Source: Gemmatimonadota bacterium (GTDB lineage Bacteria > JAAXHH01). Taken from it: a stretch of DNA of 64,000 bases. Shown in pieces: positions 2-20,662 of the stretch; the stretch's first letter is position 1; every line of letters starts with the position of its first letter. A program made the translations under genes and the position numbers. Location: the NCBI GenBank assembly GCA_009838645.1, contig VXRC01000032.1, forward strand, positions 1 to 64,000, written 5' to 3'. The notes below the pieces were generated by a model that saw nothing but the letters and a program-made list of their open reading frames with translations, was not told the DNA's origin and searched no databases.

Positions 2-343
2 TGCAAGATCATGGACTTTGGCAAGTACAAGTACGAGCAGAGCAAGCGGGTGAAGGAATCGCGCAAGAAGCAGCACGTGACGCAACTGAAGGAGATCCGC
101 TTCAAGACGCCCAAGATCAGCGAACACGACCTGGAGTACCGGGCCGAACAGGCCCGCGATTTCCTGAAGCACGGGAACAAGGTCAAGGTGTCCGTGCGGT
201 TCTGGGGCCGTGAAATGACCCACGTGGAACTGGGCCAGCGGAAATTGGAGCACATGGCGCAGATACTGGAGGACGTGGGCACCATCGAACAGCGGCCCAG
301 GCTGGAAGGCCGCAGCATGTCGCTGGTCCTCATGCCCAGGTAG
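2..343 (+). CDS. infC: Translation initiation factor IF-3, carboxy-terminal part (cut by window edge)
   Basis: IF-3 binds the 30S ribosomal subunit, keeps it apart from 50S and checks the start codon and initiator tRNA. The frame is already open at base 2 and the first visible residues (CKIMDFGKYKYE) match the junction between the two IF-3 domains, so the amino-terminal domain and the start codon lie outside the window. The 113 visible residues cover the whole carboxy-terminal 30S-binding domain, ending in the typical M-x-L-V-L-M-P stretch. rpmI follows after 16 bases and rplT after that, the classical infC-rpmI-rplT order. The characteristic non-AUG start of infC cannot be checked here. Confidence 0.97.
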   Translation, partial: CKIMDFGKYKYEQSKRVKESRKKQHVTQLKEIRFKTPKISEHDLEYRAEQARDFLKHGNKVKVSVRFWGREMTHVELGQRKLEHMAQILEDVGTIEQRPRLEGRSMSLVLMPR

Positions 344-19400: not shown

Positions 19401-20276
19401 TCAGTCGTCGTCCCGGAGGTAGGGGCTGAGCTTGCCGCTGCGGGTCGCGTGACGCAGCCGCTGCAGCGCCCGTTCCTTGATCTGGCGGATCCGTTCCCGC
19501 GTCAGGCCGAAACGGATGCCGATCTCCTCGAGCGTGTGGGCCCTTTCCGAACCCACGCCGAAGTACAGTCGGATCACTTCCGCCTCGCGGGGCGGTAGGG
19601 TGTCCAGCACCTTTCCGACGTCCGACTTCAGGAACTGAAGCATGGTGCTCTCGTCCGGCGCCGTCTGCATTTCGTCGGGCAGGAGGTCGAGCAGGCTGCG
19701 GTCGTCGTCGTGATTGAAGGGCACGTCCAGGGAAATGCAGTGGCTGAACGAACTGAGGGCCTCGTTGATCTCTTCGACCGAAATATCCATTTCCTCGGCG
19801 ATTTCATCGATATCGGGCTTGCGGCCGAGTTCATGCTGCAGGTGCTTTGAGGTCTGTTTGATGCGGCGAAGTTCTTCGGAGCGGTTGACGGGGACGCGAA
19901 CGGTCCTCGACTGATTGGCTATGGACTGTATGATGGCCTGGCGTATCCACCAGACGGCGTAGGAGATGAACTTGTAACCCCTGGTTTCGTCGAATTTCTT
20001 GGCGGCCCGCATGAGGCCCATGTTGCCCTCGTTGATCATGTCCAGCAGGGGCAGGCCGTAGTTCTGGTACTGACGGGCTACGCTGACGACGAACCTGAGA
20101 TTGGCCTTCACCAGCTTGTCCAGCGCATTCTGGTCGCCCTGCTTGATCAAACGGGCAAGCCGTACTTCCTCCTCGGCCGTGATCAAGGGATACTTGGACA
20201 TTTCGGCCAGGTAGCGGTACAGCGCCTGTTCGTACCTGGCCCCGTTTCCATAGGATTCCTGGTATGATGTGCCGAT
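19401..20276 (-). CDS. RNA polymerase sigma factor, primary (RpoD/RpoS) type, probable ATC start
   Basis: Directs RNA polymerase to -35/-10 promoters. From the first ATG (20201) the product has 266 residues with region 2 (D-L/M-I-N-E-G-N-M-G-L-M-R-A-A-K-K-F-D, then Y-A-V-W-W-I-R-Q-A-I), region 3 and region 4 (T-L-E-E-I-G-I-R-F-G-L-T-R-E-R-I-R-Q-I). Region 1.2, however, begins before this ATG: the same frame upstream reads Y-E-Q-A-L-Y-R-Y-L-A-E. That frame has no ATG, GTG or TTG before a stop; an ATC at 20276-20274 stands nine bases after a GGAGG. I therefore extend to 20276 (291 residues). The fallback is 19401..20201. It lacks region 1.1, so it may be a group 2 or short primary sigma. Confidence 0.9.
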   Translation of the reverse strand: MGTSYQESYGNGARYEQALYRYLAEMSKYPLITAEEEVRLARLIKQGDQNALDKLVKANLRFVVSVARQYQNYGLPLLDMINEGNMGLMRAAKKFDETRGYKFISYAVWWIRQAIIQSIANQSRTVRVPVNRSEELRRIKQTSKHLQHELGRKPDIDEIAEEMDISVEEINEALSSFSHCISLDVPFNHDDDRSLLDLLPDEMQTAPDESTMLQFLKSDVGKVLDTLPPREAEVIRLYFGVGSERAHTLEEIGIRFGLTRERIRQIKERALQRLRHATRSGKLSPYLRDDD

Positions 20277-20627
20277 CTTCCCTCACCTCCCCCTCGCGAC
20301 ATGCGCGGTGCGTTTCTGTCCCGTCCGCTCCGGCCTATGCGGGCCCGTTTCCCGTTACCCCGTGATTGATTGTGGTGTGAACGGTGTGCTGAACGATGCG
20401 TGCCATACAGGGTCCTGTAAAAGCTGTCCAGAATATGCGAGCGGCAAAGACGCCATCGTCAGACAGACGGAAAGGACATTCCGGCGGGTGCGCGTTCGTA
20501 ATCGAAATTGCGTCGTTGCATAAGCCAGTGGGAACCGGAAAGGACCGTCGTCGAATACGACCGCAATCCAACATGCACGGACCATGCGGACCATCGACGA
20601 GACCTGTCCCGGACGAACGGTCCCAGC
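20277..20627 (-). other. Long 5' leader of the sigma factor mRNA
   Basis: If the promoter at 20634-20662 is used, the transcript has about 350 untranslated bases before the proposed ATC start. I see no coding region supported by homology and no terminator in it; the small frames present look random. A strong GGGGGAGGTGAGG ribosome-binding region ends it. Its length suggests RNA-level control but no known riboswitch was recognised. Confidence 0.5.
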
Positions 20628-20633
20628 GTAAAC

Positions 20634-20662
20634 AAATTACACCGAAAAGCCCGTCAAGTCAA
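20634..20662 (-). promoter_or_regulatory. Promoter of the sigma factor gene
   Basis: On the minus strand TTGACT (20657-20662) and TAATTT (20634-20639) are separated by exactly 17 bases. It is back to back with the purS promoter, the two -35 boxes being 17 bases apart. Confidence 0.7.

Follow-up and report, generated by a model that had tools for sequence, protein, structure and literature searches.

In the 64,000-nucleotide stretch of Gemmatimonadota DNA analyzed here (the window), we have identified a gene for an RpoD/RpoS-like sigma-70 factor (19401-20276, minus strand, with the stop codon TGA at 19401-19403) that very probably starts at an ATC codon (20276-20274). As the best explanation overall, at a probability of about 0.8, we propose that the AUC (or AUU) start codon combined with an extended Shine-Dalgarno (SD) sequence would give a low, IF3-sensitive output of this sigma factor. 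The gene was assigned by its translation, Pfam matches, relatives in the PDB and orthologs in 16 genomes, and a comparison of these genomes gives good support to the view that the AUC/AUU start is kept across the phylum, a small one whose members are uncultured.

The ATC start codon and its conservation

On the minus strand, the frame of the sigma gene is closed by a TGA stop codon at 20285-20283, two codons before the ATC; GGG AAG lies between them. As had been claimed in the preliminary description, none of ATG, GTG and TTG occurs in this frame between the TGA and the ATG at 20201-20199, the first canonical in-frame start, which would encode Met26; this was confirmed by reading the frame from 20285 to 20201 (GGR, stop, then G K I G T S Y Q E S Y G N G A R Y E Q A L Y R Y L A E M S K Y P L). 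Also, residues of region 1.2 were indeed found upstream of that ATG. When the protein starts at the ATC, the Pfam profile Sigma70_r1_2 is matched at positions 6-33 with 46.0 bits, whereas a start at ATG 20201 gives 36.5 bits at positions 10-33; the latter start would therefore lose the residues YLAE and the preceding helix of region 1.2. The N-terminal peptide predicted for the ATC start is (f)MGTSYQESYGNGAR or GTSYQESYGNGAR.

The ATC had furthermore been described as standing nine bases after GGAGG. This is correct, in that GGAGG (20290-20286) is followed by exactly nine bases, TGAGGGAAG, and then by ATC, and the SD sequence turned out to be longer than claimed: namely, the eight nucleotides GGAGGTGA (20290-20283) are complementary to the 3' end of 16S rRNA. 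A pattern search located GGATCACCTCCTT where a 16S gene of the genome ends, with a match to RF00177 at the same locus; because the 16S gene ends in this sequence, all eight bases of the SD can pair. The in-frame TGA at 20285-20283 is itself part of this SD.

For comparison, we used 16 genomes from five genera and three families of the phylum: 12 of the source genus (its own genome included), two of other genera in the family and two of other families. An ortholog of the sigma gene is present in all 16 with at least 86% amino-acid identity, and the start column of the codon alignment holds ATC in 15 genomes and ATT in one. ATC thus recurs in 11 of 11 other genomes of the genus and in three of the four beyond it, the fourth having ATT, which bears out the earlier proposal that the gene starts at this codon. 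Neither ATG nor GTG was found at this position in any of the 16 genomes, even though ATG is a single base change away from ATC. Between the source genus and the other four genera, the 4-fold degenerate sites of the sigma gene are only 29-41% identical, and the synonymous sites are hence nearly randomized; nonetheless, the missing G at the third base is modest evidence alone and might arise in the absence of selection, because among the 61 comparable C-ending 4-fold columns, 45 gained G in some genome and 16 never did.

A second line of evidence comes from the 25 codons preceding ATG 20201, which evolve as coding sequence according to the codon alignment: 16 columns vary only synonymously, nine vary in the amino acid and none has an invariant codon, and the gaps in this segment (3 nt in genome G015 and 9 nt in G014) keep the frame. 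Likewise, GGAGGTGA is found at a spacing of 8-9 nt in nearly all orthologs, with a spacing of 8 nt in G012 and a GGAGGTG in G004 as the deviations, and all five genera keep both the SD and the spacing. In terms of the alignment as a whole, the AT(C/T) codon, the SD and the 8-9-nt spacing kept in five genera together make a strong case. Beyond the phylum, a canonical codon (ATG, GTG or TTG) lies close to the N-terminus in homologous sigma genes, and the sigma paralogues within the same genomes start at ATG or GTG.

Only two of the 16 genomes, G004 and G012, lack the TGA in frame just before the start. In G004, the upstream frame is open, and the GTG codons there are accompanied by neither an SD nor conserved residues. 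G012 reads ATT AGC ATG and has an in-frame GTG overlapping the SD; because of this GTG and the ATG two codons past the ATT, the genus represented by G012 may use a canonical start, possibly having returned to it. As a separate observation, the codons from the start onward (20262-20276, minus strand; AGC/GGC ACA TCA after the start) are unusually constant at synonymous sites, with TCA in 15 of the 16 genomes, which may point to a constraint on the mRNA around the start codon.

To our knowledge, very few bacterial genes starting outside ATG, GTG and TTG are known, and gene finders are blind to them; the usual annotation would cut 25 residues from this sigma factor. We scanned the whole genome strictly for GGAGGTGA followed after 4-8 nt by ATH, which gave 18 matches. 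Among these, only the sigma gene opens a reading frame of at least 100 codons with no usable canonical start; the other long frames have canonical starts or open far upstream, and two short frames were scored as non-coding. The sigma gene is hence the sole gene of its own genome to be recovered under the strict criteria. A general habit of starting at ATC or ATT was considered as well and rejected, since the near-cognate candidates in a 464-kb sample mostly lie beside a canonical start.

Identity of the sigma factor and its locus

Translated from the ATC, the sigma protein has 291 amino acids and comprises regions 1.2, 2, 3 and 4 but no region 1.1. The Pfam matches for these four regions exceed the curated cut-offs and place the protein in the RpoD/RpoS-type sigma-70 factors (group 1/2); the nearest solved structures, found as sequence relatives in the PDB, are SigA and RpoS. 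A role as the housekeeping (group 1) sigma factor was ruled out. Indeed, for all of the 85 non-orthologous sigma factors compared, which come from outgroups and from the primary-sigma genes of the phylum, the best match is not this protein but the paralogue L002 on contig C48, and the 16 sigma factors of the ATC-start type form one clade of their own in the tree (100/100) on a long stem, whose exact place is unsure owing to long-branch joining. On these sequence comparisons, the gene is a phylum-specific RpoD/RpoS-like paralogue, i.e., "group 2", and the primary sigma factor is a separate gene with an apparent GTG start. The preliminary description had proposed that such control of a sigma factor would link "transcription capacity" to the level of the initiation factor; this wording needs correction, since the gene does not encode the primary sigma factor.

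Between genera, the amino-acid identity of the ATC-start sigma factor is 86-92%, compared with 72-79% for the primary sigma factor. The recognition helices in regions 2.4 and 4.2 much resemble those of the primary sigma factor, and because of this likeness the two are likely to share promoters. We also noticed that one genome carries four RpoD/RpoS-like sigma factors, the other three being located on contigs C48, C49 and C24 (L002, L003 and L004, respectively).

The sigma gene is flanked by a divergent purS-purL pair and by secA downstream, an order kept in the genomes that were read across the five genera. In those genomes, no anti-sigma gene was found beside the sigma gene, the next gene downstream being secA. 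A candidate promoter, TTGACT-17 nt-TAATTT (20634-20662, minus strand), was assigned by eye from its conservation in the genus, and its position implies that the leader is likely to be about 350 nt long. Within the leader, a conserved segment at 20380-20466 (minus strand) is predicted from alignment and folding to form a hairpin with a variable loop, the length of which differs by 9 nt among species. This segment is not recognizable in the other four genera; joint folding of just four near-identical sequences revealed no compensatory changes in the hairpin, and no Rfam family reached its gathering score at the sigma locus.

Alternative starts and the proposed role of IF3

Given that ATG 20201 is the first in-frame ATG, is invariant in the 16 genomes and leaves sigma regions 2-4 intact, translation might start there, with the upstream residues as an untranslated leader. 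We consider this very improbable. An SD was looked for before ATG 20201 and none was found; a start there cuts into region 1.2, as the Pfam scores above indicate, and leaves the strong SD at a fixed spacing from the ATC unexplained. Synonymous substitutions and in-frame gaps across the phylum in the 25 upstream codons also speak against it. Still more improbable is a start in another frame (GTG 20286 or ATG 20303) followed by a programmed frameshift into the sigma frame. While the source genome does have one GTG and one ATG out of frame with the sigma gene, positioned at the SD or upstream of it, other genera do not keep the upstream ATG, the 8-nt spacing in G012 alters the relation between the frames, and the six bases between the SD and the ATC vary and thus cannot contain a conserved slippery site; on these grounds, the frameshift was ruled out. 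As to a base error or an assembly artifact that hides an ATG, its probability is negligible: ATC or ATT is read in 16 separate genomes, and this agreement excludes a sequencing error. The preliminary description had named an ATG or GTG in sister genomes, together with read evidence of a base error here, as refuting the ATC start, and no ATG or GTG was found at this position in the 16.

With the ATC taken as the start codon, the question is what such a start would do. AUU and AUC start codons are discriminated by IF3 in the bacteria studied, and the autoregulation of infC by IF3 is established. In the mechanism we propose, AUC (AUU in one genus) would start translation with fMet, guided by the extended 8-nt SD; the long SD would keep the mRNA bound to the 30S subunit, and AUC would pair poorly with the initiator tRNA. 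IF3 would destabilize or reject the 30S complexes on AUC, and the yield would therefore be low and dependent on the amount of IF3 relative to 30S subunits, falling when IF3 is plentiful and rising when it is scarce. The sigma factor would then be controlled in the manner of infC, which has an AUU start in the same genomes. By analogy with other systems, we infer a low yield from the AUC start and consider the IF3 sensitivity of the sigma gene to be likely; a strong SD with a very weak codon is a combination that elsewhere keeps the protein output low and answerable to IF3. That physiological changes of IF3 actually set the level of the sigma factor is a conjecture for which the chances are somewhat below even. 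Equally tentative is the wider idea that an RpoD/RpoS-like sigma factor is tied to IF3 throughout the phylum, with infC and the sigma gene forming an IF3-responsive set and the IF3/30S ratio switching the transcription program.

Alternatively, the ATC start might be just a fixed throttle on the amount of the sigma factor, which could be disruptive and would be kept scarce in this way, with changes in IF3 having no physiological role, which we also regard as a real possibility of somewhat less than even odds. Consistent with a fixed throttle, reporters with AUU or AUA in Staphylococcus aureus yield about 10% of those with AUG, and cvfC1 with its AUU does not respond to the medium (PMC13009471); IF3 autoregulation, moreover, should keep the IF3 level steady. 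On the other hand, overproduction and fidelity mutants of IF3 alter the SigR level in Streptomyces (PMC5472188), and IF3/ribosome ratios are described as shifting, for example in the cold (PMC6511841).

The infC genes of the phylum bear on the proposed IF3 control. Among the readable loci, 12 of 12 have an ATT start behind GGAGG(TGA). In the source genus, an ATG lies 10 codons past the ATT, and no ATG was found between the ATT and the conserved IRVPQ in G012, G013 and G015. Within the window, infC (2-343, plus strand) lies at the contig edge, and its start is cut off; its relatives have ATT behind GGAGG or GGAGGTGA. pcnB was also considered as a further near-cognate case in the phylum; this is unsupported, the pcnB-like genes starting at ATG where they are readable. 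A short tandem duplication of about 50 nt (gtcatggtgtgcctgaccgcacagcctggga) was noticed at 541-645, between rpmI and rplT.

Comparison with known systems

Several bacterial genes with comparable starts have been described. In Streptomyces, sigR starts at GTC or GTT behind the ribosome-binding site AGGAGGTG and is repressed by IF3; GTC and AGGAGGTG are conserved in 32 of 34 Streptomyces, and extra IF3 lowers SigR while IF3 fidelity mutants raise it (PMC5472188). The extended SDs and start codons of cvfC1 (AUU) and ccpN (AUA) in S. aureus are conserved (PMC13009471), Escherichia coli pcnB has an AUU start as cited in that paper, and an ATC start was confirmed in Listeria rnhC (PMC13068326). The gene described here resembles pcnB, cvfC1, ccpN and rnhC in having a conserved non-canonical start, and cvfC1 and ccpN are also documented to have an extended SD, but those genes do not encode sigma factors and belong to unrelated lineages. 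With infC, which has AUU, AUC or AUA in other bacteria and ATT in this phylum, it shares an AUU/AUC start and a strong SD; infC, however, encodes the regulator itself, whereas the gene here encodes a transcription factor as the supposed target.

As a member of the group 1/2 sigma-70 factors (RpoD/SigA, RpoS and the cyanobacterial group 2), the protein has regions 1.2, 2, 3 and 4 and a length of about 290 amino acids; unlike the others, it forms its own clade on a long stem and is present in 16 of 16 genomes beside a separate primary sigma factor. The closest parallel is sigR, also a sigma gene with a group-wide non-canonical start and an extended ribosome-binding site (AGGAGGTG there and GGAGGTGA here), in genomes whose infC also has a non-canonical start. 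While sigR encodes an ECF factor from GTC next to the anti-sigma gene rsrA, the gene here encodes an RpoD/RpoS-like factor from ATC between secA and purS-purL with no adjacent anti-sigma gene, and the repression by IF3 that is proven for sigR is here proposed by analogy.

In the open-licence literature, sigR was the sole sigma gene found with a proven non-canonical start, and no RpoD/RpoS type with AUC was found, an absence that is weak evidence. With the precedent of sigR, the addition of an RpoD/RpoS-type case by comparison across the phylum is well supported. The gene would thus be the second, independent sigma gene after sigR in which a non-canonical start and an extended SD are kept, which suggests that the wiring of sigma factors to the fidelity of translation initiation has evolved more than once.
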